Source: Brevibacillus sp. JNUCC-41 (GTDB lineage Bacteria; Bacillota; Bacilli; Bacillales; DSM-1321). Taken from it: a stretch of 64,000 nucleotides of DNA. The notes beneath the pieces were generated by a model that saw only the letters and a list, made by a program, of their open reading frames with translations, did not search any database and was not told where the DNA came from. The stretch's first letter is position 1. Each line of letters starts with the position of its first letter. This document shows, one piece after another, positions 5,401-58,343 of this stretch. The stretch covers positions 4,807,501 to 4,871,500 of the forward strand of contig NZ_CP062163.1 of NCBI RefSeq assembly GCF_014844095.1, in the 5' to 3' direction. The translations under genes and the position numbers were made by a program.

Positions 5401-5583
5401 CGTTGGATTGAAGAAATTTGCGAACCTGCCGAAAATTTGCTAGCCGAGACCCCTGTGAAACGCTTGCTTTGATGAGGCCTGGCAGACAGTCGGCGGAAAG
5501 GAACAGATTTGTGAAATTATGAACGTTGATCAAAGAAAAAAACTGCAGGCAAACCCGCTTTTACGAATTTGTCTACAGTCTGA
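5401..5583 (+). repeat. Composite intergenic element, copy A (diverged)
   Basis: This fills most of the 377-base gap upstream of yueD and downstream of cls. It aligns with copy D (52755-53003): GTTGG start, GCTAGCCGAGACCCC, GGCGGAAAGG, and a 3' hairpin (5543-5578) followed by CAGTCTGA. No coding potential is seen. The 3' end abuts a hairpin CGGTTCA/TGGACCG (about 5585-5606) that probably belonged to the cls terminator. Confidence 0.7.
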
Positions 5584-5616
5584 GCGGTTCATATAGTAAT
5601 GGACCGTAATTAAAAA

Positions 5617-7074
5617 TTATAATATGGGTGATACCAGCCTTGCAATGGACTCTTTAAAACGAATCCATTTTGAACGCTTTTCAAAGTCTTCAATTGTAAG
5701 CTGCCTACAGACTTCAACATCCTTATAAAAAATCCTTGTCAGTGTTTCGGCCATTCCTTCATCATAAATGAAGGCATTGACTTCAAAATTCAATTTAAAA
5801 CTACGGACATCAATGTTTGCTGTCCCCACCGAGGAGACCTCTTCGTCCACCACGATCATCTTCGCATGAATAAAGCCGTTATCATAGATGTATACCTTAG
5901 CTCCCGCTCTTAATAACTGCCCTGCGTTGAAAGTTGTTGCCCAATAAACGAAAAGGTGATCAGGTTTATTCGGAATCATGATTTTTACATCTAACCCTGA
6001 TAAGCTGGCAATCCTGAGTGCATCCAATAAACTTGCATCCGGTATGAAGTAAGGTGTTTGAATGAGAATCGATTTCTTTGCTGAAGATATTAATTTAATA
6101 TAGCCATTTTTAATTTGTTCCCATTCAGAATCTGGCCCACTTGTCACTATTTGCAAATCTATATTGCCTTGAGGCTTTAAAACAGGGAAATAATGAGGCT
6201 GATAAGTTATATCATGGTGCTTTGATGCCTGATTCCAATCCAGGATAAAACGGGTTTGAATGGCTTTGACAGCTGAACCCTTTATTCGAAGGTGTGTATC
6301 ACGCCAGAAACCGAATTTTGGATTAAGCCCTAAATATTCATCACCAACATTAAAGCCACCAACATACCCTACTTTTCCATCAATGATGACTAGCTTTCGA
6401 TGGTTACGGAAATTCAGCCGTAAATTTATAAATTTTAATTTGGATGGAAAGAATGCCTCCACTCGCCCTCCTGCCTGCCTAAATTCCCTGAAGAAACTTT
6501 TAGTCATCCCTCTGGAACCGAGCTCGTCATAAAGCAGCCGAACTTTGACGCCTTCATTCGCTTTTTTAGTCAAAGCTTCAATGAATCGTTTACCCAGGCC
6601 GTCCCTTTGAATGATGTAGTATTGTATGTGTATATGATTTTCTGCCGCTTCGATATCTTTAAAAAGCTGGTCAAACTTATTTTTTCCTTCCGTAAAAATA
6701 TCGACTTGATTATCTTCAGTAAGCACGGCATCATTGTTCCGGAGATGCATATAAATCAAATCACGGTAATTACTTGAAGAAGCATTTCGAAAAGGAAAAT
6801 GATTCGTTGAAAGCTCTTCCATCTGTTTATCAAGGATTTCTTCAATCCCGATTTTCTTCTTGTCCTCCCATTGGAATAAATGGGCGTGCCTTAAACTCGT
6901 TCCAAAAAGGAGATATAAAATAAAACCGACTACAGGGAGAAAATATAACACCAATAACCAAGCCCAGGTGGTGCTCGCTTCCCTTCTTTCAAAAAATATG
7001 ACAATCGTGGCAAATAAAATATTTAGAATGATGACGAGGCCGAGCAAAACCGATGTAACATGCGTAAATTCCAT
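5617..7074 (-). CDS. cls: Cardiolipin synthase
   Basis: 485 residues, the usual length. Two N-terminal membrane helices (about 6-28 and 35-58) precede two phospholipase-D catalytic motifs, HRKLVIID (His225, Lys227, Asp232) and HAKMIVVD (His403, Lys405, Asp410), each followed by the GG or GTAN strand of the family. The enzyme joins two phosphatidylglycerols into cardiolipin at the membrane. The start ATG has GAGGGAA upstream. The gene is monocistronic. Bacilli often carry several cls paralogs; which one this is cannot be told. Confidence 0.95.
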   Translation of the reverse strand: MEFTHVTSVLLGLVIILNILFATIVIFFERREASTTWAWLLVLYFLPVVGFILYLLFGTSLRHAHLFQWEDKKKIGIEEILDKQMEELSTNHFPFRNASSSNYRDLIYMHLRNNDAVLTEDNQVDIFTEGKNKFDQLFKDIEAAENHIHIQYYIIQRDGLGKRFIEALTKKANEGVKVRLLYDELGSRGMTKSFFREFRQAGGRVEAFFPSKLKFINLRLNFRNHRKLVIIDGKVGYVGGFNVGDEYLGLNPKFGFWRDTHLRIKGSAVKAIQTRFILDWNQASKHHDITYQPHYFPVLKPQGNIDLQIVTSGPDSEWEQIKNGYIKLISSAKKSILIQTPYFIPDASLLDALRIASLSGLDVKIMIPNKPDHLFVYWATTFNAGQLLRAGAKVYIYDNGFIHAKMIVVDEEVSSVGTANIDVRSFKLNFEVNAFIYDEGMAETLTRIFYKDVEVCRQLTIEDFEKRSKWIRFKESIARLVSPIL

Positions 7075-7167
7075 AGTATTCCCTCACTCAATTTTTATCC
7101 CTTTAAGGATACCATGCAAATTCTTTATATCAAAGGATTTGCTTATCAGAAGTGAAAACAGAGAATT

Positions 7168-7203
7168 CAAAAAAAGGACCTCTTCCTGTAGAGGCCCCTT
7201 TTA
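7168..7203 (-). terminator. terminator of the CstR-like gene
   Basis: Stem built on GGGGCCTCT/AGAGGTCC with A-run and T-run flanks. It lies between the regulator gene and cls. Confidence 0.75.
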
Positions 7204-7306
7204 AAAAAATCCCACCCTGGAAATTTAGAATTTCTCAGATTGGTCAGATTGTTTTTAATTATTGTCTTAAACATTCCAATTCAACAATAACAATAAATAT
7301 AATTGC

Positions 7307-7570
7307 TTATCGGCTTTTCACTAATAAATTCACAGCTTCTTTCACTAGCTCTTCGGGATTTTTTTCTCCGGATTCATTAGCCTCCCGGACGCATTCTACA
7401 AGATTTGAACTTACTATTACCCCGATTGTCCTATCGATTGCAGATCTAGTGGCAGATAACTGCGTTACTACTTCTCTGCAATCTTTGTTTTCCTCCATCA
7501 TTTTCAATATCCCACGAAGCTGACCTTCTATTCGCTTCACTCTATTTTTAACCTGATTGTCATATTCCAT
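7307..7570 (-). CDS. CsoR/FrmR-family repressor with CstR-type ligand set (persulfide sensor-like)
   Basis: An 87-residue all-helical DUF156 protein starting at ATG 7570 (AGGAGGCC upstream). It keeps two cysteines at Cys31 and Cys60, but the histidine that completes the Cu(I) site in CsoR is Asn56. That Cys-Asn-Cys pattern, at identical numbering, is what is known for CstR, which forms di- and trisulfide bridges with persulfides instead of binding copper. I therefore infer a reactive-sulfur sensor. No rhodanese, TusA or sulfide:quinone reductase gene is adjacent, so its targets lie elsewhere. A palindrome in its own promoter suggests autoregulation. Confidence 0.85.
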   Translation of the reverse strand: MEYDNQVKNRVKRIEGQLRGILKMMEENKDCREVVTQLSATRSAIDRTIGVIVSSNLVECVREANESGEKNPEELVKEAVNLLVKSR

Positions 7571-7671
7571 GTGAGGCCTCCTACCTTGCCTATTACTTAT
7601 GAATCCTATCCAGACATCCATCATAAACAAATTCAGTTGAAATGAAGGATTGATAAAAAATCTTACAATTT

Positions 7672-7702
7672 ATAATACATACCACTTAGGTATAATTGTC
7701 AA
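7672..7702 (-). promoter_or_regulatory. Promoter of the CstR-like gene with embedded operator
   Basis: On the minus strand, TTGACA (7697-7702) and TATTAT (7672-7677) are 19 bp apart. The spacer holds the inverted repeat ATACC-N5-GGTAT (7679-7693), the G/C-arm type typical of CsoR-family operators. Binding here would block polymerase, fitting autorepression. Confidence 0.6.
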
Positions 7703-7741
7703 GTGCCAAAATTCAATAATGATAGCTCCAATATGTAATTT

Positions 7742-8185
7742 CTATTTTTGTACTAGGAGACTTTGTGCAACTGCCTCAGAAAACTCAATCGTCATTTGTG
7801 GAACGTAGGTTTTTAACAAAGCATTGACGATAGGGGCTTTGGCTCCTTTTGCCGTAATCGCCAGGCAGCCAGTCATTTTAGTCTGGCCAACTCCGCACTG
7901 TTCTGCTAAAAAATAGCCATGCCCATCAAATTTTTCATTTAATCCCTTAAGTTTAAATGTTACCTTTTCGGGTTCAATCCATTCCAATATATTCACTTCA
8001 AGTTTTATTTTCTTCTTCATTAATCCCAAATCGCTTTTAAACTCCCAGATGAGTGTCCACTCATTCATCATCTCATGATTGATATATCCTGGGACAAGAG
8101 GTGCCCAACGATCTATGCTACTTACAAATCCCCAAACCGTTTTTATTGAAACAGGTAAAATGATACTGTGCACACCTTCTGACAA
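7742..8185 (-). CDS. CoxG-like SRPBCC domain protein
   Basis: A 147-residue START/SRPBCC-fold protein (polyketide-cyclase-like helix-grip) with the CoxG pattern: N-terminal VWGFVSSIDRWAPLVPG, central FKLKG and C-terminal amphipathic helix. CoxG proteins help recruit or mature molybdenum CO-dehydrogenase-type enzymes in some bacteria. No such genes are nearby, so the role here is open. The start is TTG behind AAGGGGGAA. It is convergent with nothing and is probably transcribed alone. Confidence 0.75.
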   Translation of the reverse strand: MSEGVHSIILPVSIKTVWGFVSSIDRWAPLVPGYINHEMMNEWTLIWEFKSDLGLMKKKIKLEVNILEWIEPEKVTFKLKGLNEKFDGHGYFLAEQCGVGQTKMTGCLAITAKGAKAPIVNALLKTYVPQMTIEFSEAVAQSLLVQK

Positions 8186-8320
8186 AGCAGTTCCCCCTTA
8201 ATCATTCTATTTACATCTTTTTAATGTATGGCTGAATATTATTGAATAGAACGGTAAGCTCAGATTCTTAAACAAAATTCTCCCTGTGGTAAGGAAACCA
8301 TTTAAAGATACTAACAGTAA

Positions 8321-8353
8321 AGAATCGCCCTTATGCAATATAGGGACGATTCT
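8321..8353. terminator. intrinsic terminator downstream of the DUF4309 gene
   Basis: Stem AGAATCG-CCCTA / TAGGG-CGATTCT. The better T-run is on the plus strand, but the only upstream gene that could use it is the minus-strand DUF4309 gene. Confidence 0.55.
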
Positions 8354-8371
8354 TTTTTGTTTTGTTCCTTA

Positions 8372-8908
8372 TCAATCTGACGCAATTTCAACCGTATACA
8401 TACTCAATCTTGGATCAGGGTTGATCCAGGCGCTTTCAAACACGAATACCACTTTATAATTTGCGTAATCGGTATAAGTGACATAGTACATCCCTTCTTG
8501 CTCCACTTCACTTACAGGTTCACCAATCAATCCCTTCAACATGGATAAATGGATGGTTTGCAATCGCGGATCAAAATCATCAATGGCGGTAATCGTTTTT
8601 CTTCCTGTTGAACCGTCATAGAGGAAACGGATATTATGGGACCAATAATTGGCCGCGACGGTACTTAAATCTTCCGGTGCACCCCAGGCTTTTCCCACTT
8701 TCTTCAATGAATCACCTACAGAAAATGGGCCACTGCTAATGGTTTGCTGGGATTCATAGGCCAAACCCATGATCTGCCGAATCAAAAGGTCCGGCGTGGA
8801 TTGTGATGATAGTGAATTTGATGAAGCAAAAGCAGCCTGACCACTAAACATGAGAAATGCGAGCATTAGAAATGTAACACTTTTGATAAAACGATTCACT
8901 TGTTTCAA
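8372..8908 (-). CDS. Secreted DUF4309 protein (YjgB-like)
   Basis: 178 residues with an N-terminal signal peptide (basic start, hydrophobic stretch, cleavage after SGQAAFA). The mature part fits DUF4309, known from Bacillus YjgB: GPFSVGDSLKKVGKAWG, then strands ending in YKVVFVFE. YjgB is an extracellular protein without known activity. I chose TTG 8908 because GGGAGGATACC precedes it; the longer in-frame form from 8947 has no ribosome site. Confidence 0.75.
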   Translation of the reverse strand: MKQVNRFIKSVTFLMLAFLMFSGQAAFASSNSLSSQSTPDLLIRQIMGLAYESQQTISSGPFSVGDSLKKVGKAWGAPEDLSTVAANYWSHNIRFLYDGSTGRKTITAIDDFDPRLQTIHLSMLKGLIGEPVSEVEQEGMYYVTYTDYANYKVVFVFESAWINPDPRLSMYTVEIASD

Positions 8909-9197
8909 AGGTATCCTCCCTTTCCACCTGGAAGTGACTAAGTACATTATTTTAAATATCTAAAAAAAATGAAAAATGCTTATGTCATTCCAGTTGGTTT
9001 TACCTTTACCATTAATATTCATTGGAACTTTGGACACATACCATTCGTTTTTAAAAAAACTTAGCATGAAATATTAGTCTATTTAACTTGACGAAAATGG
9101 CACCTCATTTGTCCGAGTGGGCACAAAAAAATGCTCACACCGTTTTCTTATGATGATAGTTAATTCATACAAGCTAACGATGGTGGAGATTTTGAGA

Positions 9198-9250
9198 ACT
9201 CATGCTTAAATAGGATCTTTAAGGTTGCTAATTAAGCATGAGTTTTTATT
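9198..9250 (+). promoter_or_regulatory. Leader terminator upstream of the glpT remnant
   Basis: A 12-bp inverted repeat ACTCATGCTTAA / TTAAGCATGAGT followed by TTTTTATTT, 60 bp before a strong GGAGG site. In Bacillus, glpT-type transcripts are controlled by GlpP antitermination at leader terminators, so this is probably the surviving control element of the dead gene. Confidence 0.55.
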
Positions 9251-9311
9251 TGTGTCATCATCAATACTTAATTCAATTAGGTTCAAAAATATCATATTAA
9301 GGAGGAATTGG

Positions 9312-9617
9312 ATGCTCAAATTACTTTAGCCAGTTTTACCAGTTGAGAGATTACCTAAAGGAAAGATAGATTCCGAAAATAAGAAACTCAGTTTACAAGT
9401 TTTCCTCGGAAACTTCATTGGATATGCAGCGTATTATTCAATTCGTAAAAACTTTTCCATCAGGCATTCCGGTCACTTTATTATGCGGTTATATCTCGGA
9501 TAAAGTTTATAAAGAACATCGGGGGTTGTCTTTATGCCTGGTGCTTTAATCGAAGTCCTTGTTTACTGGTTTAACCCTGCTGGCAACCTAATGATTGATC
9601 TAACTGCGATTGGATAG
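9312..9617 (+). pseudogene. glpT: Decayed glycerol-3-phosphate transporter gene (glpT)
   Basis: A good ribosome site (AAGGAGGAATTGG) and ATG open a frame MLKLL that stops at codon 6 (TAG), then reads on as KKLSLQVFLGNFIGYAAYYS and IRKNFS, the N-terminus of GlpT. At about 9460 the text jumps, with a frameshift, to GIPVTLLCGYISDKVYKEHR. It then shifts again to VLVYWFNPAGN, both from the C-terminal half of GlpT. So there is one nonsense codon, two frame changes and a large internal deletion. No glpQ follows. The remaining bases to 9777 contain nothing I recognise. Confidence 0.85.
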
Positions 9618-9776
9618 CGGCTGATGTTATTAAATATATTCTAAAGCGGATGGATTTTTTATGAATAGTTAAACACCCTCCATGATTAGATCGACGGCAA
9701 ACAATATCTGTATATTCAGATAATAACCGAGAAGCTGTTGCCGGACGGTTTGGGTAACATTTCATAATGGAATACA

Positions 9777-9827
9777 TAAAAATAAATGACTATGCCTTTA
9801 CACCAACGGTCCTAAAGGCATAGTCAT
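9777..9827 (-). terminator. terminator of ansAB
   Basis: 15-bp stem ATGACTATGCCTTTA / TAAAGGCATAGTCAT with a T-rich tail on the minus strand, just after ansB. Confidence 0.85.
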
Positions 9828-9868
9828 TACATCAAAATCATATAGATTGTTTTCTACTAATTTACTGG

Positions 9869-11299
9869 TTATTGCCGGTCAAAAAGTGAAGCTCCCGCTA
9901 TACCGGGTTTTGTCATCTCATAAGGATTTAGAATTAGATCCAATTCTTCTTCTGTCAACACATCATATTGTAAACAAAGTTCGCGAACTGATTTGCCTTT
10001 TAATATCGCTTCACGCGCAATACGTGAAACCACTTCGTACCCAAGGTGCGGATTGACTGCTGTAATCACACCAACACTTTGTTCGACATAATCTTTTAAA
10101 TGTTGCTCATTAGCTTCAATGCCTTCTAAGCAATAATCTGTAAAGACATTGAAAGCATTGTTCATGATGCTAATTGATTGCAATAAATTGAATACAAGGA
10201 CTGGTTCCATTACGTTCAACTCTAGTTGTCCTGCTTCTGATGCTAAGCAAATTGTATTATCGTTCCCGATCACTTGGAAAGCGACTTGATTAATTAATTC
10301 TGGCATTACTGGATTTACTTTTCCTGGCATGATGGATGAACCTGGTTGACGTGCTGGAAGAGTGATTTCCGCTAATCCCGCTCTCGGTCCTGAAGCCATC
10401 AAACGTAAATCATTAGCAATTTTAGACATATTCATCATACATACTTTCAATGAAGCTGACACTTCAGTATATGCATCCGTATTTTGGGTTGCATCCACTA
10501 AATGTTCTGCACCTACAAGCGGCAAGTTACTGATTTCAGCTAAATATTTAACAACATTTTCAATGTAACGGGGATCTGCGTTCAATCCCGTTCCCACTGC
10601 TGTTGCCCCCATATTCACTTCATATAAATGTTGGCGTGATTGACTGATTCGTTTTATATCCCGATCCAACACGCGACTGTATGCCTCAAATTCTTGACCG
10701 AGTCGAATTGGCACTGCGTCTTGAAGATGTGTGCGTCCCATTTTGATAACATGATCAAATTGTTTTGCTTTATTCTTTAAAACCGTGCTCATCTTGGTCA
10801 TTGTTTGTAACAATTGCTCTAAAAGTCTTAATGTTGATAAATGAATGGCAGTTGGGAATACGTCATTGGTTGATTGCGACATGTTAACATGGCTATTTGG
10901 ACTTACTTGTACATACTCCCCTTTATTGTGTCCCATGAGTTCTAACGCACGGTTGGCAACGATTTCATTAATGTTCATATTCATCGATGTACCTGCGCCG
11001 CCTTGAATTGGGTCAACGATGAAATATTCATGCCACTTTCCATCGATCACTTCATCAGAAGCTTTGACGATAGCGCTTCCAATACCATCATATAACCGTT
11101 TGGTATCCATATTTGCTAAAGCGGCTGCTTTTTTAATCATAGCTAGTGCACGAATCATTTCTTCATTGACTTTGTAACCGGTAATCGGAAAATTCTCTAC
11201 AGCGCGTAAAGTTTGTATTCCATAATAAACATCAGCTGGAATTTCCTTTTCCCCAAGAAAGTCTTTCTCGATGCGGTATGTTCTCTCTTCTGTCAACAT
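9869..11299 (-). CDS. ansB: Aspartate ammonia-lyase (aspartase)
   Basis: 476 residues of the fumarase/aspartase superfamily. The signature GSSIMPGKVNP is at 320-330, with upstream active-site blocks GAGTSMNMN and MSQSTNDVFPT. It deaminates aspartate to fumarate plus ammonia, the second step of asparagine use. ATG 11299 follows ansA by 23 bp and gives the usual length; the frame is open further upstream but that would overlap ansA. It is cotranscribed with ansA and should be under AnsR control. Confidence 0.96.
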   Translation of the reverse strand: MLTEERTYRIEKDFLGEKEIPADVYYGIQTLRAVENFPITGYKVNEEMIRALAMIKKAAALANMDTKRLYDGIGSAIVKASDEVIDGKWHEYFIVDPIQGGAGTSMNMNINEIVANRALELMGHNKGEYVQVSPNSHVNMSQSTNDVFPTAIHLSTLRLLEQLLQTMTKMSTVLKNKAKQFDHVIKMGRTHLQDAVPIRLGQEFEAYSRVLDRDIKRISQSRQHLYEVNMGATAVGTGLNADPRYIENVVKYLAEISNLPLVGAEHLVDATQNTDAYTEVSASLKVCMMNMSKIANDLRLMASGPRAGLAEITLPARQPGSSIMPGKVNPVMPELINQVAFQVIGNDNTICLASEAGQLELNVMEPVLVFNLLQSISIMNNAFNVFTDYCLEGIEANEQHLKDYVEQSVGVITAVNPHLGYEVVSRIAREAILKGKSVRELCLQYDVLTEEELDLILNPYEMTKPGIAGASLFDRQ

Positions 11300-11322
11300 T
11301 TCCTCTTGCCCCTTTGTCTGTT

Positions 11323-12312: not shown

Positions 12313-12414
12313 TTTTGACTTCAACTTCCCCAATAAACTACCCCCTATAAAGCCTCCCTGTTTTACAATCATTCATCATCTTAGAAAAGGATGTTTTTGC
12401 TGGTTATATACATG

Positions 12415-12424
12415 TTACGCGTAC
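12415..12424. promoter_or_regulatory. Putative AnsR site 1
   Basis: TTACGCGTAC with palindromic core TACGCGTA. It lies just downstream of the ansAB -10, so about at the transcription start. It is identical to site 2. Confidence 0.55.
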
Positions 12425-12434
12425 ATCACATGTT

Positions 12435-12463: not shown

Positions 12464-12477
12464 GCTAAAAACATTCA

Positions 12478-22143: not shown

Positions 22144-22335
22144 TTGGAACCAAACAAACCCGGCAATAAGAATGTACCGGATTTTAAAGAGTTGAACGAT
22201 CGTATCATCAGAGAAGCATCACAGAGTCCCCGTTTAGTGATTCAAACAAATTTGGATGCAAAGAATGTAAAGGATGAGAACCCTTATGCGGATCGGATAA
22301 ACAGTGAAGGATTTTCTGATTTTTTTGAGGAATAA
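22144..22335 (+). CDS. Small acidic protein, 63 residues, unknown
   Basis: TTG start seven bases after GGAGGTGG; an in-frame ATG at 22129 overlaps that site and is unlikely. The product begins MEPNKPGNKNVPDFKELNDR and ends GFSDFFEE. It is charged and probably partly disordered. The start region faces the 54-residue gene divergently. Confidence 0.6.
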   Translation: MEPNKPGNKNVPDFKELNDRIIREASQSPRLVIQTNLDAKNVKDENPYADRINSEGFSDFFEE

Positions 22336-22339
22336 AACA

Positions 22340-22480
22340 AACCACTTTGTACAATTTGGACGTTGATTTCCGCTCCAGGCACTCGCTTTCCGCGGGCTGT
22401 CCGGAGCCCCTCGGCGCCTTTGCGCCTGCGGGGTCTCGCACACCCTCTCCAATCAACTTTGTTTTAAAATATAAAATCCC
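22340..22480 (-). repeat. Composite intergenic element, copy B
   Basis: Reverse orientation. The GC-rich core (about 22366-22450) matches copy D closely: CTCGCTTTCCGCGGGC, GGAGCC, CTCGGCGCC, GCGCCTGCGGGGTCTC. The end next to corA carries GTAGAAAAAGGG and AAAACAAAGTTG like copy D. The 3' hairpin is not preserved. It is non-coding and lies between a plus-strand small gene and the corA terminator. Confidence 0.8.
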
Positions 22481-22496
22481 TTTTTCTACATAATTA

Positions 22497-22517
22497 AACC
22501 GGCTTAATAAGCCGGTT
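22497..22517 (-). terminator. corA terminator hairpin
   Basis: Perfect 9-bp stem AACCGGCTT/AAGCCGGTT directly after corA. The T-run is weak because element B begins here. Confidence 0.65.
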
Positions 22518-22521
22518 AATT

Positions 22522-23460
22522 TTAAAAATATTTTTTCTTCCAAAAAATGAAAGCCGTCGTCCCAGCTAATGTGATGGCAATTAATAATGTAAAAATGAAA
22601 GCAAACCGATTATGTTCAAATGGTAGTTCGACATTCATTCCGTAAAAACTTGCCACCATCGTCGGAAGTGTTAAAATAATGGTCACTGAGGTTAGAAACT
22701 TCATGGCATTGTTGACATTATTGGAAATGATCGAAGCGAATGCATCCATCATACCGCTAAGAATGGATAGATACACTTCCGCCATTTCGATTGCCTGAGC
22801 ATTTTCGATGATTACATCCTCTAGCAATTCTTTATCTTCTTCATACATTTTCAAATAATTAAAACGGAGGATCTTATCAAGTACTACTCGATTGGATTTC
22901 AATGATGTCGTAAAATAAACCAGGCTTTTTTCCAAAGCAAGGAAAGTGTATAATTCTTTATTTTTCATGGACTGATGCAATTCACGTTCCGCTTCATTAG
23001 TCATCTTGTTAATCTGTTTGAGGTAACGTAAGTAATAGGATGAAATCTCAAATAATAATTGTAACGCAAACCTGGTTTTCTTATTGGTGAAAAACCCTTT
23101 GATTTTATTGTTTTTGAAATTCGCCAATATCGGTGTTTCTTTCAAAGACACTGTAATGAAACAGTCTTTGGTAAAGATCATACCGATGGGGATCGTTTCA
23201 AAGATCGGTAAGTCGGCTTCGTCCCTGGTCAAATATGGGAAGTCGACAATAATTAAGACATTATCATCCTCTTTTTCAATTCGTGGCCTTTCCTCATCGT
23301 CCAGTGGGTCTTTCATGAAGTTAATCGGTAATTGCAAAGTCGTGCATATATAATCTATTTCAGCTTCTGTGGGCGCAACAATGTTCACCCAGGAACCTTT
23401 TGTCATTTCCTCGATATTGATTAGGTGACGGTTTTCATCCGTCTTGTAGATTTCAATCAT
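22522..23460 (-). CDS. corA: CorA-family Mg2+/divalent cation channel
   Basis: 312 residues: a long cytosolic N-terminal domain, a helical stalk, then two C-terminal membrane helices. The pore signature FYGMN follows the first helix (TVIILTLPTMVASFYGMNVEL). CorA forms a pentamer that takes up Mg2+ (also Co2+, Ni2+). GAGGAGGTCAAGAA precedes the ATG. A 36-codon ORF ends 30 bp upstream. Confidence 0.95.
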   Translation of the reverse strand: MIEIYKTDENRHLINIEEMTKGSWVNIVAPTEAEIDYICTTLQLPINFMKDPLDDEERPRIEKEDDNVLIIVDFPYLTRDEADLPIFETIPIGMIFTKDCFITVSLKETPILANFKNNKIKGFFTNKKTRFALQLLFEISSYYLRYLKQINKMTNEAERELHQSMKNKELYTFLALEKSLVYFTTSLKSNRVVLDKILRFNYLKMYEEDKELLEDVIIENAQAIEMAEVYLSILSGMMDAFASIISNNVNNAMKFLTSVTIILTLPTMVASFYGMNVELPFEHNRFAFIFTLLIAITLAGTTAFIFWKKKYF

Positions 23461-31233: not shown

Positions 31234-31263
31234 AAACAACCTATTATTTATATAGGCTGTTTC
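31234..31263 (-). terminator. Distal terminator copy flanking element C
   Basis: AAACAACCTAT / ATAGGCTGTTT hairpin with a T-rich tail (TTTTTTATTTT) on the minus strand. The same 30 bp recurs at 31449-31478 (26 of 30 identical). Confidence 0.7.
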
Positions 31264-31448
31264 AGACAGAAGACAAATTCAAAGTAAAAAGCGAGTTTGC
31301 CTTCTGTTTTTTCATTTTTAAAAATGAAGATGATTTCAGAAATCCGCTCGCTTTCCGCCGGGGGTCTCGGCTAGCCATTAAACCGATTCTTCTTTTGAAA
31401 TCCGGTTCGGGGTGCGACACTTCCGGAAGCCCTTTTGTCAACAAACTG
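31264..31448 (-). repeat. Composite intergenic element, copy C
   Basis: Reverse orientation. The 5' end (near 31448) reads AGTTTGTTGACAAAAGGGCT, the core has GCTAGCCGAGACCCC and GGCGGAAAGCGAG, and the 3' hairpin (CAGAAGGCAAACTCG against GAATTTGTCTTCTG) ends in TCTGTCTGAAAC. It fills the gap between the ABC permease and MBL genes. Confidence 0.78.
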
Positions 31449-31478
31449 AAACATCCAATAATCTATATAGGCTGTTTC
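31449..31478 (-). repeat. Proximal duplicate of the terminator hairpin
   Basis: 26/30 identity to 31234-31263. It begins right at the permease stop and lacks a T-run because element C follows. Confidence 0.7.
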
Positions 31479-39470: not shown

Positions 39471-40318
39471 ATATCTCACTCCTTAGAATTGAATTGACTC
39501 CGTCCTGCATAACAGATCACAAGCCATAAAGATAAAAGAAAGAATAGATGGCGTTTAATCTAAATTGTGAGTAAATAACCATTCGCAAATCTAAGTATGA
39601 TTATTGTTTTCTTTCAAACAAACTTTTGAATGGTAAGAACTTGAGATTACGACATGAATTTTTCATATCTCAGTACCCATTATATCATATATATGCTTTT
39701 TTTATTTGAAGAAAAATTCTAAAAAAGAAATGATTCCCCAAAATGAAACACAGTCCCTGACTTACCCTTCGAGATAATCGAGACTGCGCTGTTCAAGAAT
39801 CCATTCCATATGGTTCTTCCTGCTCGTTCAATGAACATTTCAAAGCGTATCGAGCATGAGAGTAATTTTTAATGCCAAAACCTAAAACAATGAAAGCCCT
39901 GCCTCTCTCCCATCCATACGGTTCCTAGACCGTGCCTGCGAGAATCAGATAAAAGCTTGTAAGTACATGTTTATTAATTAAAACCGTCCGTAATTCCAAT
40001 TGGGTAGATTAAATTCCAAAAGACAAATGGTACATAGAAGTAAGTTAATGAAGAACAGAAATGGATCGAGGAAAATAATTACATGTAGTTCTTTTTTCTA
40101 GATGTGTTTAACTTGTTTCTACTTCATCATTAAAATGATGAAAAATTATTTTATTAATAAAAATGTTACTTTAAATTACCCTCCAGTGCTTTATTTCCAT
40201 AACACTGAAACTTAATAATACCATAAATATTTTTATATGTAAAGCGTTATTCAAAATGAAATCACTCGTCATACTTCTTTCTTAAAATAAAAAATAAAGA
40301 GGCTATGATTCACCTCTT
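39471..40318. other. 848-base gap between the two ydjO-like genes
   Basis: AT-rich at both ends, with a more balanced middle (about 39740-39960). No convincing ORF: a 39-codon minus-strand frame at 39719-39838 has no ribosome site. No hairpin terminator or repeat was recognised apart from weak stems. Confidence 0.4.
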
Positions 40319-51470: not shown

Positions 51471-52661
51471 ATGACAAAAAAATTGTATTACACATCCACA
51501 AAGACTTCCCAATGGGCTACCAAAATTCAGGAGAGCTTTGAAGAAGATGGCTTTTATTACATCACTCTTGAAGAAACCGCTTTTTATCCCGAAGGGGGCG
51601 GTCAGCCTGCAGATACTGGTTTAATAGAAGGAATCACCGTTCTTGACGTTAAAAAAGGCAATGATGGAACGATTCTGCATAAGACGGAGAAAAGGCCAGA
51701 TTCAGAAATCGTACACTGTGAACTTGATTGGTCCCGTCGCTTCGATCATATGCAACAGCATAGCGGTCAGCATTTACTCTCTGCTGTCTGCAGGGAACTG
51801 TTCGACTCTAATACGGTCAGCTTTCACCTTGGAAACGAATATTTAACGATCGATATAATGTCAGGAGTTCAATGGACTGAAGAACATACGGCTGCTGCTG
51901 AAAAGCTAGTTAATCAATATATCATCGAGAATCGCGAAATACTTATCTATTACGTGACAAACGAGCAATTACAGACACTTCCTGTCGTCAAAATGCCTAA
52001 AGTTTCAGAGAATATCCGTATTGTCGAGATTGAAGGGATTGAATATAACCCTTGCGGTGGAACCCATGTAGAGCGTACAGGTGAGATTGGCTTAATAAAA
52101 ATTTTCAAAACGGAAAAGCAGAAAGAGCATACCCGTCTCTATTTTAAGTGCGGCTTCAGGGCATTGAACGATTATTCCGAAAGTCTAGGCATTCTTTCAG
52201 CACTATCGAATAAGTTCAATACCGGACGTACAGAGATTCTGAATAGGGTGGAGAAACTGGAGAATGACTATAAGCAGTTACTATCGGCAAATGAAAACTT
52301 AAAACTTGAAAATGCAAATTTTCTTGCTGACTCTCTGCTTGCAGAAAATGCAGGGGGATTCATCTCTCATATTTTCGAAGATAGATCAATGAAGGAACTT
52401 CTTTACCTTGCAGGTACGATTGTAAAAAAGGAAAAGGTTACCGTATTATTAGCATCACGTAAGGAGCAAAAGGTCATCCTTACGCACAGTGGGGCCATGC
52501 CCTTACACTGCGGACAATATTTCAGGGCCGAACTCGGTTCTTATAACGGGAAAGGCGGAGGGAACGAACAGACTGCACAAGCAGGTTTTGCGTCACAAAA
52601 TGACTTAATTGAATTTTACCAATACACAGTTGAAAAATTAGGCCATAATCTTGGTGTATAA
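51471..52661 (+). CDS. alaX: Alanyl-tRNA editing protein (AlaX-L type, with DHHA1)
   Basis: 396 residues. The editing core has metal ligands in MQQHSGQHLLSA (HxxxH) and NPCGGTHVERTG (CxxxH), preceded by the glycine-rich FYPEGGGQPAD. A coiled coil and a C-terminal DHHA1 domain (GSYNGKGGGNEQTAQAG) follow. It hydrolyses Ser-tRNA(Ala)/Gly-tRNA(Ala) in trans as a backup for AlaRS proofreading. AGAAAGGAAAAAG precedes the ATG. Confidence 0.93.
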   Translation: MTKKLYYTSTKTSQWATKIQESFEEDGFYYITLEETAFYPEGGGQPADTGLIEGITVLDVKKGNDGTILHKTEKRPDSEIVHCELDWSRRFDHMQQHSGQHLLSAVCRELFDSNTVSFHLGNEYLTIDIMSGVQWTEEHTAAAEKLVNQYIIENREILIYYVTNEQLQTLPVVKMPKVSENIRIVEIEGIEYNPCGGTHVERTGEIGLIKIFKTEKQKEHTRLYFKCGFRALNDYSESLGILSALSNKFNTGRTEILNRVEKLENDYKQLLSANENLKLENANFLADSLLAENAGGFISHIFEDRSMKELLYLAGTIVKKEKVTVLLASRKEQKVILTHSGAMPLHCGQYFRAELGSYNGKGGGNEQTAQAGFASQNDLIEFYQYTVEKLGHNLGV

Positions 52662-52731
52662 AACCTTTGCGTAGTGGTTGAAGACATTCGTGATGAACAA
52701 GGAAATCATGACTTCCAAGAACGATAAGAAA

Positions 52732-52754
52732 GAGGACAAATTAAGTCCTCTCTC
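52732..52754 (+). repeat. Proximal duplicate of the terminator hairpin (left of element D)
   Basis: Hairpin AGAGGAC/GTCCTCT without T-run. 21 of 23 bases are identical, in direct orientation, to 53005-53027. Confidence 0.75.
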
Positions 52755-53004
52755 GAGTTTGTAGACAAAAAGGGCTTTACCTAAAATTTCAAAACAAAGT
52801 TGGTTGGAACGGAAGGTGCGAGACTCCTGCGGGAAAAGCGCGTCGAGGGGAGACCCCGCAGGCGCAAGGCGCCGAGGAGGCTCCCGGACCGCCCGCGGAA
52901 AGCGAGTACCTGGAGTGGAAATCGACGTTCAGGATTTTATAAATAAACCCACATAAAAACTAGACAAACTTGATTTTACATCGAGTTTGTTTACAGTCTG
53001 AAGA
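52755..53004 (+). repeat. Composite intergenic element, copy D (most complete)
   Basis: About 250 bp. The 5' end is GAGTTTGTAGACAAAAAGGG, then AAAACAAAGTTGGTTGG and a GC-rich core of roughly 110 bp with self-complementary blocks (GGGGAGACCCC, CGCAGGCG, AAGGCGCC, GGACCGCCCGCGGAAAGCGA). The 3' hairpin is AGACAAACTTGA/TCGAGTTTGTTT, followed by CAGTCTGAA. No ORF. It lies between alaX and its terminator. Confidence 0.85.
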
Positions 53005-53032
53005 GAGGACAAATTATGTCCCCTCTCTTTTT
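53005..53032. terminator. Distal terminator copy (right of element D)
   Basis: GAGAGGAC/GTCCCCTCTC hairpin followed by TTTTT on the plus strand. It probably ended alaX originally and also serves the convergent 137-residue gene. Confidence 0.75.
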
Positions 53033-53444
53033 ATTCTTCAATTTTCAATTTCACTAATCCGTGTTCTTCAATATGAAGATGATATTTTTCTTCAAGCTCC
53101 ATGATACGTTTAAACGCTTCCTCCTGATTGTATTCATGTTTTTCCGACTCCTCGGCAAACTCTTTTCTAGCTAAATGGTAAGCAAGCTTATCCCTGAACA
53201 CTCCTTCTTCATACTCATTTATGACTTCATGAAGTTGCTCCTCCAATTCCCTGCTTATATCATAAATTTCATGTTCCTTCACAAACTGGACACCTTCCAT
53301 GCCGAAATCTTTGGCAAAGGAATTGAGATACTGTTCCACTTCACTGAACTCTTTATTATTTTCAGTATCGGAAGCAACCCAATATCCGTACTGAACCATT
53401 TTGAATAATGTCTCATACTGTTTCTTGGTAAAATTGATTTTCAT
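53031..53444 (-). CDS. Hypothetical acidic helical protein, 137 residues
   Basis: Starts MKINFTKKQYETLFKMVQYG, with a strongly acidic helical remainder (RELEEQLHEVINEYEEG, RIMELEEKYHLHIEEHG). No membrane segment or cysteine. GGAGTATCGAC precedes the ATG. The N-terminal pattern recurs in uncharacterised Bacillus proteins, but I cannot name the family. Confidence 0.75.
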   Translation of the reverse strand: MKINFTKKQYETLFKMVQYGYWVASDTENNKEFSEVEQYLNSFAKDFGMEGVQFVKEHEIYDISRELEEQLHEVINEYEEGVFRDKLAYHLARKEFAEESEKHEYNQEEAFKRIMELEEKYHLHIEEHGLVKLKIEE

Positions 53445-53481
53445 GTCGATACTCCTTTTCCGGTTTCCTTACAACAAAAAG

Positions 53482-53521
53482 AATAAACCGCAATGGAACA
53501 AAAGTCCAATGCGGTTTATTC
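53482..53521 (-). terminator. terminator
   Basis: AATAAACCGCA-TGGA / TCCA-TGCGGTTTATT stem directly after the 63-residue gene. Confidence 0.75.
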
Positions 53522-53713
53522 TCAATCCAATATTTCCGTTACTGAAAAATAAGCTGCTTTTTCCGTATCTACGACATAATGGCAATCGCCTTTAACTAAA
53601 TTATAATAGCGGTGCTTTTGAATATTTGAAATCATTTGAGTTGAGTCATCGCCTTCAACCTCATGCTCTAGTTCTTTGCCACCCGGAAAATAAAAACTAA
53701 CTTTCAATTTCAT
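53522..53713 (-). CDS. Hypothetical protein, 63 residues
   Basis: Begins MKLKVSFYFPGGKELEHEVE: short beta-strands and one helix (STQMISNIQKH), no cysteine pair or membrane segment. ATG 53713 follows AAGGATG; earlier in-frame ATGs (53722, 53734) are less well spaced. It resembles the small Bacillus proteins with a KGDCHYVV-type strand, family not named. Confidence 0.65.
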   Translation of the reverse strand: MKLKVSFYFPGGKELEHEVEGDDSTQMISNIQKHRYYNLVKGDCHYVVDTEKAAYFSVTEILD

Positions 53714-53854
53714 CTTTCTCATCCTTCCCCTCATCTGGTTGAATCACTCTTTTATTTCTTATCCTTTCTCATGCAGTTTTAAACATAAATAAAATGCCAA
53801 TTCACTTTTTCCATGATATTCTAGGGAAAAATACGAAAATCAGAAGGTGTTTTC

Positions 53855-54376
53855 ATGAAGATAAGGAAAGCCAAAGAAAAAGATGTAATTGGAATAGCAA
53901 ATGTTCATATTAACAGCTGGAAAACGACTTATAAAGGAATCCTCCCGGACCAATATTTGTCCTCCATGAATCTGGAAGCCAAAAAGAAAAACTGGCTAAG
54001 AAATTTAAAGATGCTGCATAATGCCACCTTTGTAGCGGAAAACGCCAATGGGAAAATTATCGGTTTCGCTGCCGGCGGGCCTGAACAAACGAAGGATCCG
54101 CATATTCAAGGTGAAGTATATGCGATTTATTTTTTAAAAGAATATCAACGGCAGGGACTCGGCCGAAAAATGATAAAAGCGGTCATACATGAGCTTATTG
54201 AAATGGGACATAAGAATTTAATAATCTGGGCACTAAAGGATAATCCTTCATGCGGTTTTTACAAAGCCCTTGGCGGTCAAGTGATAGCTGAAAAAACCGT
54301 TAAAATGGCAGGCATCGAGCTCATCGAAGTCGGTTTCGGGTGGGAAGATATTCAGGATATCCTTTTGCATTTGTAA
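53855..54376 (+). CDS. GNAT-family N-acetyltransferase
   Basis: 173 residues. The GNAT core is visible: N-terminal IRKAKEKDVIGIANVH, beta-4 GEVYAIYFLKEYQRQGLG with acetyl-CoA loop RQGLGRKM, and LIIWALKDNPSCGFYKALGG. It acetylates an unknown small molecule or protein amine. AGAAGGTG precedes the ATG. Monocistronic. Confidence 0.9.
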   Translation: MKIRKAKEKDVIGIANVHINSWKTTYKGILPDQYLSSMNLEAKKKNWLRNLKMLHNATFVAENANGKIIGFAAGGPEQTKDPHIQGEVYAIYFLKEYQRQGLGRKMIKAVIHELIEMGHKNLIIWALKDNPSCGFYKALGGQVIAEKTVKMAGIELIEVGFGWEDIQDILLHL

Positions 54377-54385
54377 GCGTATCTC

Positions 54386-54413
54386 AAAGAGGGTGTTACA
54401 CCCCACCCTCTCT
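54386..54413. terminator. bidirectional terminator
   Basis: AGAGGGTG / CACCCTCT hairpin between the convergent GNAT and helD genes. Confidence 0.75.
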
Positions 54414-54414
54414 T

Positions 54415-56664
54415 TCATGTCTCGATAAGGAAAGCATTTTTCTCATTACCTAAAAAATAAAGCCTGTGCAATGGCCTTGTCATTGTTACGTACAGCAATT
54501 TGATATCAAGTTCATTTCCATGGCAATACGCTTCTTCCAGGGATATTGCAAAAACGACATCGAATTCGAGACCTTTGGCTTGATAGGAAGGAACAATCAA
54601 CGTTTTATCCTTAGGGATGTTTCCAGCTTCATCAATTAAATGAAAGCCTTGATGGAATCCCTTTAGTTTCTCGTTTGCCAGTTTGCAATCTTTCATCGTT
54701 TTAGCAATAACGGCAAACGTTTTAAATCCTTCTTCTTTAAGGCTTGCAATAAGTTCGATAAGTTCTTCTTCCCAACCTTCCTTTTCAATGGAAACGAATT
54801 CTGGATCTTTACCATGACGGACTACAGGTTCAACTTCCGGGAAATCATATGTTAACAACTGAAGTATTTCATTAGCTTGTTTCATTATTTCAACAGTAGT
54901 TCTGTAGCTTTTTTGTAATTCAGTATACGTTGCCCGAGGGAAAATACGACTGTGAACCTCTTCCCATGTTTGAAGTCCGCGGTATGAATGGATGCCTTGT
55001 GCAAGATCGCCTACAAGAGTGAACATATCGGTTTCCACTGCCGTCTTTAGTGCCTGTAACTGCATGAAGCTGTAATCCTGTGCCTCATCAATGACGACAT
55101 TTTTTGCTTTGTTTTCTTTATCGACACCAAAAAGCCGCTCCTGAAGATATAACAATGCTCCTAAGTCCTCCAGCTCATAACTTTTAACAGAAAATAATTT
55201 ATGATTATACTCACATAATACACTGGCATCTTCAACAGTAAGTTTACCGTTGCTGTAAGAGGCAAGACGCTCCGGATCTTCGTATAACTCCTTATAGTAA
55301 TCCAAGAGATCTTTACTTTTGAATTGCTTAAAATACCCTTTTACGGAAGTACGGATCGCCTTTTGGATCTGACCAATCCTTTCCTCCTTTTTATCGAGGC
55401 ATTTTGTAACAAAATCCTTACGAATGACTGGATCAATATTTCTATAGAGAGCTTTCTCAATTTTGGCATCATAAAGATCAACAACACGTTCAAGCATTAT
55501 TTTCTTTTTCAATTTCACTTCATTTTGTAAAATGGCCTTCAGTTTGTCCAGCCTGCTGTATAATGGTAAATACCAATAATCCTCTTCCAATAATCTAATG
55601 AACTTCTTAGCGGAATAGAGGCGATATTTATCACAATAAAAATCAGCATTAGGATGGAAACCCTTGAAAATATCCTTTACATATTCGTCCAATATATATT
55701 TAAAGACAGGGGAGCCCTTCAGACCTGATATCCAGACCGCTGAATTAATTTCTTGATCATCCTTTTCCAGCAATCGAGTTAATTTATCATCCGCTACAAG
55801 CTTCACCTGCTTTCCTATCGCTGCCTGAACATATTCGGAAAATGTGAATTGTTTTACCTTTTCCACACCCAATTCAGGTAAAGCTTCAGATATGTAATCA
55901 ATGAAAACCCGGCTCGGAGCAAGAATCATTAATTGGCGCGGATCGAACAGGTCTTTATAGTGATAAATGAAATAAGAGATCCTATGTAAAGCAATTGTAG
56001 TTTTACCACTGCCCGCTGCGCCTTGGACAATGATAGGTTTATTCAAATCTGCACGAATGATTTTATTTTGTTCTTCCTGGATCGTGGTAATGATATCTGT
56101 CAGTCGATTGCTGGAACTTTTGGAAAGGGATTCTTGCAATAATTCATCCGTCGTTGTCAAATCAATGTCCCTTATCTCCTCCAAGACACCTTCTTCGATC
56201 ATTAGCTGTCTTTTTAAAGTGATATTCCCGCTGAATGTCTCTCCTTCGGCTTCATATTCTATTTCACCAATCCGTCCCTCATAATAGAGGTTTGCAATCG
56301 GCGATCGCCAATCGACGATGATCTGTTCCTGGCTTTCCCTCTGATAAAGCGATGTTTTTCCGAAATAAAGGACTTCGCCTATATCACTGTCATTCCTTTC
56401 GAAATCCACTCTTGCAAAATAAGGCTTTTTACTTGCTTTGCGTAAACTTTCAAGTTCGGTTTTGGACATCTCAAAAAAGTTGGCCGTCGTCAGTAACTGT
56501 GAATATAAGCCCGATTCAGACCAATCGGCATCGCCAAAAGCTTCTTGCATATTCCGCTGAAACTGATCTTTGCTTGTTTCTGATGTTTTGATGACTACAT
56601 CGATATAACGTTTCGTAAAATCCAGCCGCTGCCGTTCCTGTTCAAAATCAGGGTGATTACCCAA
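54415..56664 (-). CDS. helD: HelD-like UvrD/Rep-family ATPase (RNA polymerase recycling factor)
   Basis: About 749 residues. Superfamily 1 motifs: Walker A GAAGSGKTT, motif II VVIDEAQDYSFMQ, GDLAQGIHSYRG, motif VI VTMTRPLHRLYF. The long coiled N-terminal arm and a large insert (about 330-500) are those of HelD, which uses ATP to pull stalled RNA polymerase off DNA. TTG 56664 follows GGGGAGG; GTG 56673 overlaps that site. Monocistronic. Confidence 0.92.
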   Translation of the reverse strand: MGNHPDFEQERQRLDFTKRYIDVVIKTSETSKDQFQRNMQEAFGDADWSESGLYSQLLTTANFFEMSKTELESLRKASKKPYFARVDFERNDSDIGEVLYFGKTSLYQRESQEQIIVDWRSPIANLYYEGRIGEIEYEAEGETFSGNITLKRQLMIEEGVLEEIRDIDLTTTDELLQESLSKSSSNRLTDIITTIQEEQNKIIRADLNKPIIVQGAAGSGKTTIALHRISYFIYHYKDLFDPRQLMILAPSRVFIDYISEALPELGVEKVKQFTFSEYVQAAIGKQVKLVADDKLTRLLEKDDQEINSAVWISGLKGSPVFKYILDEYVKDIFKGFHPNADFYCDKYRLYSAKKFIRLLEEDYWYLPLYSRLDKLKAILQNEVKLKKKIMLERVVDLYDAKIEKALYRNIDPVIRKDFVTKCLDKKEERIGQIQKAIRTSVKGYFKQFKSKDLLDYYKELYEDPERLASYSNGKLTVEDASVLCEYNHKLFSVKSYELEDLGALLYLQERLFGVDKENKAKNVVIDEAQDYSFMQLQALKTAVETDMFTLVGDLAQGIHSYRGLQTWEEVHSRIFPRATYTELQKSYRTTVEIMKQANEILQLLTYDFPEVEPVVRHGKDPEFVSIEKEGWEEELIELIASLKEEGFKTFAVIAKTMKDCKLANEKLKGFHQGFHLIDEAGNIPKDKTLIVPSYQAKGLEFDVVFAISLEEAYCHGNELDIKLLYVTMTRPLHRLYFLGNEKNAFLIET

Positions 56665-57732
56665 TGAAACCACCTCCCCTTCCTTATTTAGTTATCACAC
56701 TCATTAAAATGCCGATGCTAAGACGAAATGGACATTTATACTATCAGAAAAGCCAATGGTTGACAAATCTGGAGACATAGAATGATATAGTTGAAATTTT
56801 ACCTTCCCTGATACTTCATATAATTTGTAGAATGCGCTAATAATTCCAGATTGGATTTTGCTATAATATGTTGACTTATGAAGGAACATTCAAACTTCCA
56901 GTAGGAAAATCATTTAATGCTTTTTTTACCATTCTGGGAATGGGAAGTTTATTTCCATTTCATCAGTTGGATATCACATGATCCGATGCAATGACAATTA
57001 TACTATCCTCTTTATACATAATGATATGCAATGAATTCATGTATATCAAAAAAACAACTGCCCCCCTCCCCTATCAAAACTGCTATAAGATTGCACAACA
57101 GTTATTGCATGTATTAGGGGGCAACCATACCACAGTTTTACTTGTTATTTTATTATTCATATATTAGGAAAGGCTTAATTCAGGCACTTTGGCAGCATTG
57201 GATTGATCATTAGTGTAGTTATGTATGTGATGCACGCTTTAATGACTTTTTCTTATCCATGAAAGCCGTCCCCTGAAAAGGAATTCAATCAAATAAAGTT
57301 GGCCGAGGTAAAAGGGGCGGACATCATAGAAAGCTACAATTTGTGCGGGTATAACTGCGACCGTGCATTAGGCATCATCATGGGTATGTTGGATTGGGAT
57401 ATCCCAATGGACTGGCGGGGGGTGACATACCTTTATTCGGCAAGGAATTTACTTCAAGATACATTTTTTTCAGATAGGGTCTGACTAAAAATATTATAAT
57501 GTTTCTCCTACGGCTATAACTAATCAAGTCTCTGGCTTCAATAATGTATGGTCCTCATGATTCTCTGGAATGACCCAGCACTTCCATTAGGATAAAGTGC
57601 TCGATTATACTTTCTTCTACAATTGTCATCATCTCTTAACATAAATAACGCTAATTTAATATTTTTATTGGAAACTCCCATTATATACTTACATTACAAT
57701 TAAATAATTTTTTTAAGAAAGTGGGTACTGTC
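56665..57732. other. 1.07-kb region without a convincing gene
   Basis: Holds an inverted structure at about 57058-57124 (TGCCCCCC...AGGGGGCA) and a 61-codon plus-strand frame (57299-57484, begins MAEVKGADIIESYNLCGYNC) without a ribosome site. The middle is slightly less AT-rich, suggesting relics of a deleted gene. No other feature recognised. Confidence 0.4.
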
Positions 57733-57972
57733 ATGGAAATGAATGAAAGACAACCAATGCTATCCCCTAAATTAATCCATGAACTTGAAATTTTATCAAC
57801 CAAAACAAATATGCCTATCTCCGAAATATTGGAAATATCTGTAGTGTCACTGCTGGAAAAGGTGAATAATACTAAAGAACTGAATGTTGGACTTAATAAT
57901 AAGGAAATGATCTTAAGAAATAAAATCATCATCAATCAAAATAAAGAGGTTTTGAATAACCAAAGCACTTGA
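57733..57972 (+). CDS. Small protein with ribbon-helix-helix-like segment, 79 residues
   Basis: Begins MEMNERQPMLSPKLIHELEI. The stretch SPKLIHELEILSTKTNMPIS and the following ILEISVVSLLEK has the strand-helix-turn-helix spacing of RHH regulators, although the first strand is poor. ATG 57733 has a weak GGGT site; GTG 57721 is an alternative. It is followed by a good terminator, which supports expression. No toxin partner adjacent. Confidence 0.55.
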   Translation: MEMNERQPMLSPKLIHELEILSTKTNMPISEILEISVVSLLEKVNNTKELNVGLNNKEMILRNKIIINQNKEVLNNQST

Positions 57973-57994
57973 CCATATAGGTGAAGTGCTTTTT
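57962..57994 (+). terminator. terminator of the small RHH-like gene
   Basis: AAAGCACTT / AAGTGCTTTTT stem-loop overlapping the stop codon. Confidence 0.8.
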
Positions 57995-58159
57995 GCTTCC
58001 TAACTGCCACTGTTTTAATGGATAAATATTCTATCGTGGTTTCCAATATAATATTTATTAAAAATAGCCCTATAAAATATTCAGCAAAATCCCCTTCATA
58101 TTTGATTAAGATACCATGTAGGGTTCCTGAAAAAATCATATCGGTTTGATAATTACGCA

Positions 58160-58187
58160 TAAAAAAAAGCAGCTATTAGCTGCTTTT
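58160..58187 (-). terminator. Distal terminator for the RDD gene, next to element E
   Basis: AAAAGCAGC-TATTA-GCTGCTTTT hairpin with A8 on the left (T8 on the minus strand). Its segment CAGCTATTA (58170-58178) recurs at 58344-58352. Confidence 0.75.
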
Positions 58188-58343
58188 CAAAAGGATGGCT
58201 ATCTAAATGTTAAACAAAGTGACTCCCGCATAGAAAAGTTCGAACAAGCGAGTGCCCTCCGTTCCAATCAACGTTTGAATTTTTAAAAACCCTCAAAAAA
58301 CTATAGACAAACTTGATCCTCCAAGTTTGCCTACAGTCTGAAA
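58188..58343 (+). repeat. Composite intergenic element, copy E (core deleted)
   Basis: Left part CAAAAGGATGGCTATC and TTAAACAAAGTGACTCC aligns with the 5' part of copy D. The GC core is mostly lost (GCGAGTGCC remains). CGTTTGAATTTT leads to the 3' hairpin AGACAAACTTG/CAAGTTTGCCT (58304-58334) and CAGTCTGAAA. Confidence 0.75.

Follow-up and report, generated by a model that had tools for sequence, protein, structure and literature searches.

Intergenic repeats of Brevibacillus sp. JNUCC-41 as probable IS1182-family mini-transposons that duplicate terminators and carry a structured GC-rich core

Are the composite repeats between the genes of Brevibacillus sp. JNUCC-41 a family of RNA genes, or are they copies of a mobile element? 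The window analysed here is a stretch of 64,000 nucleotides (nt) from this genome (assembly GCF_014844095.1, contig NZ_CP062163.1, positions 4,807,501 to 4,871,500). A preliminary description had proposed that five places in it hold one family of elements, each with a GC-rich core and a conserved 3' hairpin. In this study, we conclude, with a probability of about 0.88, that the repeats are non-autonomous, internally deleted miniature inverted-repeat transposable elements (MITEs) of the IS1182 family of insertion sequences (ISs), in which a structured GC-rich core is nested.

On their upstream side, several copies of the repeat pass into a transposase gene, which begins there on the opposite strand. 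The one transposase scanned (locus L053) matched the IS1182 family model NF033551 with 457.7 bits against a cut-off of 270, and its DDE domains PF13751, PF01609 and PF05598 each scored above the cut-off. The genome of the window contains 28 transposase matches, 7 of which span residue 1 or 2 to 455 without an internal stop, and full elements among close relatives are 1.73-1.76 kb long. The element ends are inverted repeats, CAGACTGTAGACAAAC and GTTTGTAGACAAAA. All five full IS copies that were printed had MITE-like ends and a terminator as target-site duplication (TSD), with one mismatch in one of them. A stem-loop and a T run were seen by eye directly after the CAGTCTGA-type end in 17 of 20 flanked copies, each with a sequence of its own; L013, L025 and L029 were less clear. 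These results indicate that the outer parts of the window repeats are evidently IS1182-family transposon ends, and that the window copies are gene-less derivatives, or MITEs.

The target of these elements was investigated in the best 80 of 352 related IS loci in named genomes, in 73 of which both ends were placed. A palindromic direct repeat of 19-35 bp (median 26) flanked the element in 69 of the 73 loci, including 34 of 34 with a core in the leader and 35 of 39 without one. Mirrored positions of the TSDs were paired at 84% on average, compared to 40% in shuffled letters. The 69 TSDs were mutually distinct, and every one folded into a stem of 6 bp or more. At least five T in eight letters followed on the right flank in 52 of the 69 (background 6%), at least five A in eight preceded on the left flank in 50, and both flanks qualified in 37. 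A looser search for short two-ended copies in the same genome and its relatives gave 25 candidates, 12 of them with a TSD of up to 33 nt, perfect in 5.

Relatives that lack the element carry one terminator at the same site. At the site of copy 4, a single terminator was found in at least 4 of the 17 same-genus relatives shown (L164, L165, L170 and L172), and the BLAST pieces on either side of the empty site overlapped by 26-27 bp in G264, G266 and G185. A single terminator was also found in 8 of 13 relatives for copy 5 (L203-L208, L210 and L211) and in 5 of 16 for copy 3 (L193, L194, L197, L198 and L199); in L201, the orthologue of copy 5 is a longer element. Elsewhere in the genus, the terminator of copy 4 holds other IS1182-type insertions or remnants (L163, L166, L169 and L171), in the opposite orientation where this is readable. 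Since the insertions in L163, L166 and L169 differ, terminators appear to be repeated targets. Taken together, the base of a rho-independent terminator is evidently where these elements insert, and the stem-loop is duplicated in full. An ordinary RNA gene and an intron, two other candidates, were ruled out by the transposase, the TSDs and the empty sites.

The IS1182-type transposase would recognise the ends CAGACTGTAGACAAAC... and ...TTTTGTCTACAAACTG. Insertion would take place at the base of a terminator stem-loop and the whole stem-loop would be duplicated, leaving a hairpin on each side. The transposase may cut at the feet of the terminator stem-loop or of a cruciform, and repair would then copy the hairpin to both sides. 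Such cutting and copying is consistent with a branch of the model that Wan et al. put forward (PMC5678879).

The element also has a hairpin of its own. A stem of at least 10 bp lay within the first 45 nt of all 76 IS left ends located, and 74 of the 76, read in the direction of the transposase, had a run of at least five T at nt 30-62. The hairpin is thus apparently the end of the IS, and read as a terminator it points into the element. The preliminary description had taken it for a 3' end; it is an IS end beside the transposase gene rather than the 3' end of an RNA. The surmised selection on its structure is supported: the stem is kept in all 76 ends, and arms of different sequence do pair in the different copies. 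A terminator placed at the element's entrance would account for arms that pair and yet vary. Together with its T run, it would shield the transposase gene from outside transcription, and it would also restore a stop for the neighbouring gene.

The features of the five window copies are collected in Table 1. Copies 3 and 4 are short, carry no transposase gene and have both ends and a TSD. An end or a clear TSD is missing from copies 1, 2 and 5, and none of the five contains a transposase gene. Copy 4, which sits between convergent genes in the list of open reading frames (ORFs), is flanked by direct terminator repeats, AAAGAGGACAAATTAAGTCCTCTCTC and AGAGAGGACAAATTATGTCCCCTCTC, with 3 mismatches in 26; these had been overlooked. 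Its terminal hairpin is arranged as in the full IS copies, and it had no entry in the consensus terminator scan. In copy 3, neither AAAACAAAGTTG nor AACGTT was present, and no match to the core model R1 was found at E<=1. Copy 1 contains no AAAACAAAGTTG, and its left end was not recognised. Copy 2 directly follows a stem-loop at about 22491-22520, and has neither the terminal hairpin nor CAGTCTGA.

Table 1. Coordinates of the repeat copies, cores and terminator duplications in the window
Feature	Position	Strand	Details
Copy 4: complete IS1182-type MITE with nested GC-rich core	52756-53001	+	246 bp; both ends found; TSD delimited
Copy 4: GC-rich structured core	52799-52926	+	R1 130.9 bits, E=3e-29; fold z=-2.87
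Copy 4: left copy of the duplicated target terminator	52729-52754	+	26 bp; terminator-like on the - strand
Copy 4: right copy of the target terminator, then T run	53002-53027	+	terminator-like site 53007-53021
Copy 4: terminal hairpin and IS end with CAGTCTGA	52959-53001	+	GTTTTTAT after the hairpin on the - strand
Copy 3: IS1182-type MITE with both ends; core decayed and partly deleted	31262-31447	-	186 bp; TSD 30 nt, 4 mismatches
Copy 3: target-terminator copy	31449-31478	-	partner at about 31234-31263
Copy 5: IS1182-type MITE; left end degraded, core internally deleted to its edges, terminal hairpin intact	58188-58341	+	
Copy 5: left terminator copy	58167-58187	+	right partner at about 58341-58360; by eye, against single-terminator relatives
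Copy 1: diverged, AT-richer core with terminal hairpin and CAGTCTGA	5402-5583	+	R1 5402-5524, 25.2 bits
Copy 2: degraded left end and core with internal deletion (22362-22457)	22362-22490	-	R1 45.4 bits

The idea of one family of five copies with one order of parts did not hold in this form. Repeats with the named motifs do occur at all five places, but no listed part is common to all five, and the order is complete only in copy 4, since copies 1, 2, 3 and 5 each lack some parts. Two nested things were found instead, namely IS1182-family ends and a separate core. Nor is the number limited to five. Model R1 alone gives at least 130 matches in the genome (among the 150 scored of 1027 candidates). 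A search of the 5.49-Mb genome for further copies with BLAST gave at least 51 matches with copy 1 and at least 56 with copy 4, both lower bounds with 40 candidates scored each. The composite character of the repeats, and their repetition across the genome and in relatives, were borne out. The core was said to be GC-rich, as is true of copies 2 and 4 (GC 0.67) but not of copy 1 (GC 0.47). It was also said to contain no ORF; at a minimum of 80 amino acids this is so in four copies, but a mechanical ORF at 22208-22543 (-) overlaps copy 2.

The core itself is a module of about 128 nt bounded by GTTGATT and AATCAAC, and many IS1182 elements do not have it. It was absent from the leader in 39 of the 73 IS loci, and 14 of the 24 leaders printed were without it, at 82-121 nt. 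In leaders that carry it, the core has one constant orientation, and by eye it lies upstream of the likely promoter in some and downstream of it in others. L109, an IS1182 element of 1843 bp from Sporosarcina luteola, has a core in the leader and a second one, in inverted orientation, close to its other end. On a transposase tree of 47 rows the core was present in 24, and at least 6 changes are needed to explain this; L134 was counted as coreless in this recount, its core lying outside the IS. About five core-bearing IS1182 clades, with sister elements that lack the core, can be read from the tree. A core that belonged to the ancestral IS leader was considered and rejected on the coreless relatives; the tree itself is compatible with ancestral core loss.

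The core is also carried by elements unrelated to IS1182. We sampled 63 cores in the genome of the window, found by motif patterns in fetched stretches and in the window, which is not a census. IS1182-type ends flanked 25 of them, 22 lay in a second carrier, and 16 had neither by the patterns used; 20 of the stretches were chosen from a group of similar length. The second carrier (L220-L239, same genome) is a MITE of 218-219 bp with unrelated 23-bp ends, GGCTSTTTTCGTAAAGATTGTTG and CAACAAAGTATGCGAAAACAGCC, both of which were recognised in 11 of 20 stretches. It has an AT-rich duplication of 8 bp, which is plain in L220, L223, L224 and L233. ISL3, a family suggested by the ends and the 8-bp TSD, was rejected, as no ISL3 transposase match was found in the genome. 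With up to 2 mismatches allowed, the end was absent from the 30 ISL3-matching loci fetched, and a pattern scan of viral contigs gave 0 matches.

In three Priestia plasmids and one Niallia plasmid (L143, L144, L147 and L149), the core adjoins a terminator hairpin as well as an GAGGCTGGRACAAA-type repeat. Among the Priestia copies, the bases flanking the GTTGATT/AATCAAC pair differ between copies and by eye still pair. Genes annotated as hypothetical proteins over the core at L143 2502-2684 and L149 2501-2638 are probably spurious. Plasmids of B. subtilis and Paenibacillus urinalis (L145 and L146) have a core that contains an insertion in a zwf-gnd-glucose-6-phosphate-isomerase cluster, where its neighbours are gnd and a small hypothetical gene. 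In a tandem array that repeats every 188 bp or so (L038, G000:C1:711333-712627), four full cores and one partial core alternate with a single terminator sequence, present five times, and a second array, at G000:C1:702641-703708, has a period of about 426 bp. Within the order, R1 matched 190 of the 249 genomes sampled, and 84 of 105 genera. In a sample taken across the phylum it matched only 2 of 249, one of which is the genome of the window. No match to the core was found in phage records. The shared carriage shows that the core has apparently moved into at least one unrelated MITE as well as several IS1182 lineages; it would spread as a passenger of its carriers and be kept for its structure.

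Selection on the core structure was strongly supported by counting compensatory changes. Among 76 distinct rows fitted to the model, both sides had changed in 28 of 40 pairs, and 0 of 500 shuffles scored as high. In an alignment of 24 cores (A2), the same was true of 20 of 43 pairs, again with 0 of 500 shuffles as high. For A2, 7 of 65 extracted cores were left out as truncated or odd, thinning of near-copies (more than 90% identical) left 21, and the 24 rows finally used were chosen by hand for spread. The core alignment A3 was drawn from 70 hand-picked loci. With the 76 model-fitted rows, all five covariation measures exceeded all shuffles, and 90.8% of cells were paired, compared to 30-43% when the rows were slid. 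The loops GACTCC/GGAAAGCG and GACCCC/GAGGAGGC are near-invariant. These results strongly support that the helices of the core are under selection for pairing.

The strand on which the core would act was judged from wobble pairs. On the strand of the preliminary description, G-U pairs exceeded A-C mismatches by 84 to 49 when counted by cells and by 41 to 22 when counted by cluster (p = 0.023). This excess favours that strand as the RNA, short of proof. Of the two strands, it is more likely to be the functional one. In the simplest case, the core may be an RNA domain of transcripts that head for the terminal hairpin and end at the duplicated copy of the target terminator. The left end of copy 4 contains a promoter-like sequence, TTGTAG-17-TAAAAT. 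A broader proposal is that the core is a mobile structured-RNA gene family of Bacillales, related to tsr24, which several transposon lineages acquired independently and which gains a host terminator on insertion. We regard this as possible but doubtful. If true, each IS1182-type jump of the core would yield a ready-made small RNA or an extension of a 3' untranslated region (UTR).

The core might instead be selected as a DNA hairpin, for example as a cruciform recognised by transposases or by a chromosome protein. IS1182-family elements prefer stem-loop DNA, and the core is nearly self-complementary; the L110 core, the one folded on both strands, is stable on each. However, the second carrier duplicates 8 AT-rich bp, G-U exceeds A-C on one strand, and a single U-G pair is conserved in 75 of 76 sequences. 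Selection as DNA thus seems rather unlikely to us.

Another explanation is that the core is a regulatory RNA in the 5' UTR leader of IS1182 transposases and was merely retained in the MITEs. Within the 80 wholly scanned IS loci, cores do lie in the leader and in one orientation, the extra core of L109 being the sole exception. However, the position of the core relative to the likely promoter, as judged by eye, varies between clades, being upstream in some and downstream in the others, and about half of the elements have none. It is also present in a second MITE family with different ends and in a third kind of repeat, on the Priestia and Niallia plasmids, and the wobble asymmetry favours the strand opposite to the transposase mRNA. 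A leader RNA is therefore improbable.

The whole composite could also be one family of non-coding RNA genes that ends in its own 3' hairpin and was spread by other means. The strong covariation of the core, the G-U excess and the resemblance to tsr24 would fit such a family. The outer parts, however, are the ends of transposase-carrying IS1182 elements with target duplications, the leaders of 39 of 73 such elements are coreless, and the core is found without IS1182 ends in another MITE, which makes a single RNA family very improbable. That the flanking repeats are simply the two host terminators of convergent genes, such as those around copy 4, is hardly credible, because the repeats match within each site and differ between sites, and element-free relatives carry one terminator.

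Several observations weigh against the reading of the repeats as terminator-duplicating MITEs with a nested, RNA-like core. Among the IS loci, the ends were not both placeable in 7 of 80, and no TSD was found in 4 of 73 (L081, L093, L125 and L130). In the looser search, 13 of 25 two-ended candidates had no TSD; they include decayed copies and IS leaders. In the window, no clear TSD can be made out by eye at copies 1 and 2, and R1 finds no core in two of the five copies. Every core in a leader opposes the transposase, and five independent random insertions would agree in this way about 1 time in 16; therefore, something besides chance may govern core placement. In the 24-core alignment, the measure of further pair types (1 of 5) was not above shuffles (69 of 500). 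The strand test used an alignment fitted to the structure, and its p of 0.023 is modest. Upstream of the core, a sigma-A-like promoter scored above shuffles at the 5% level in 6 of the 20 IS1182-type left ends that could be scored and in none of 8 left ends of the second carrier, and a consensus scan upstream of the copy 4 core listed no promoter. Finally, the matches to tsr24 (RF02577) were 28.7 bits in L109 and 24.8 bits in L110, compared to a gathering score of 50.

The MITE reading accounts for a repeat that is very common between genes in soil bacilli. It describes a DNA transposon that usually duplicates an entire terminator, so that intergenic insertion would occur without loss of the stop signal, unlike the deletion reported for IS1272. 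It also isolates a structured module, which is found in about three quarters of the genomes sampled from the order and travels in unrelated mini-transposons. A covariance model and many copies are at hand for testing both the transposition mechanism and the transcription of the module directly.

Among known RNAs, the S. aureus small RNA tsr24 was the best of 11 weak Rfam matches across eight loci. The two share, on the same strand, a central rod with internal loops GGCGAGACUCCUG.GGGA / CCC..GGAAAGCG. They differ in that the match of L109 spans model positions 130-203 only, and the outer parts of tsr24 align poorly. At E<=0.001, tsr24 was found neither in the genome of the window nor in 14 control genomes, a search thus without a positive control. 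Among the open-licence PubMed Central (PMC) papers searched, none was relevant by title to tsr24 or the core. Group IIC introns insert beside intrinsic terminators and are ribozymes with a reverse transcriptase. The elements studied here resemble them in terminator-adjacent insertion, but have a DDE transposase and target duplication instead. No Rfam intron reached the gathering score in the window, whose single match at this level is the small RNA BsrC at 39877-39958 (+), with 73.7 bits against 38.

Stem-loop repeat families of Bacillus and Staphylococcus, such as bcr1, are short, folded and mostly intergenic, with tens of copies in Bacilli (PMC2267715). The bcr1, Bhal and Sta families were compared with the core by their description. 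Among open-licence PMC papers, as far as their excerpts go, no description was found of the core or of terminator-duplicating IS1182 MITEs, and older or subscription reports may exist. The GC-rich core is thus apparently undescribed, as far as these searches reach.

The closest known systems are IS1272 and TnSha1 of staphylococci, which belong to the IS1182 family and target inverted repeats, including terminator stem-loops (PMC5678879, PMC4923244). The transposase family and the kind of target are common to those elements and the present ones. In the excerpts on IS1272 and TnSha1, the stem-loop is reportedly replaced or partly deleted, with no duplication; here, in contrast, it is completely duplicated in 69 of 73 loci, and the empty sites have a single terminator. 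The model of Wan et al. does include a branch that duplicates the stem-loop at both ends (PMC5678879), and IS1182-related transposases are described as working with or without target duplication (PMC12056078). IS1182 elements are also over-represented between convergent genes (PMC9208149), an excess that would be expected of a terminator target. Targeting of terminators by IS1272 and TnSha1, with loss of stem-loop sequence, is thus already in print, and duplication of the whole terminator by MITEs appears, as far as searched, to be new.

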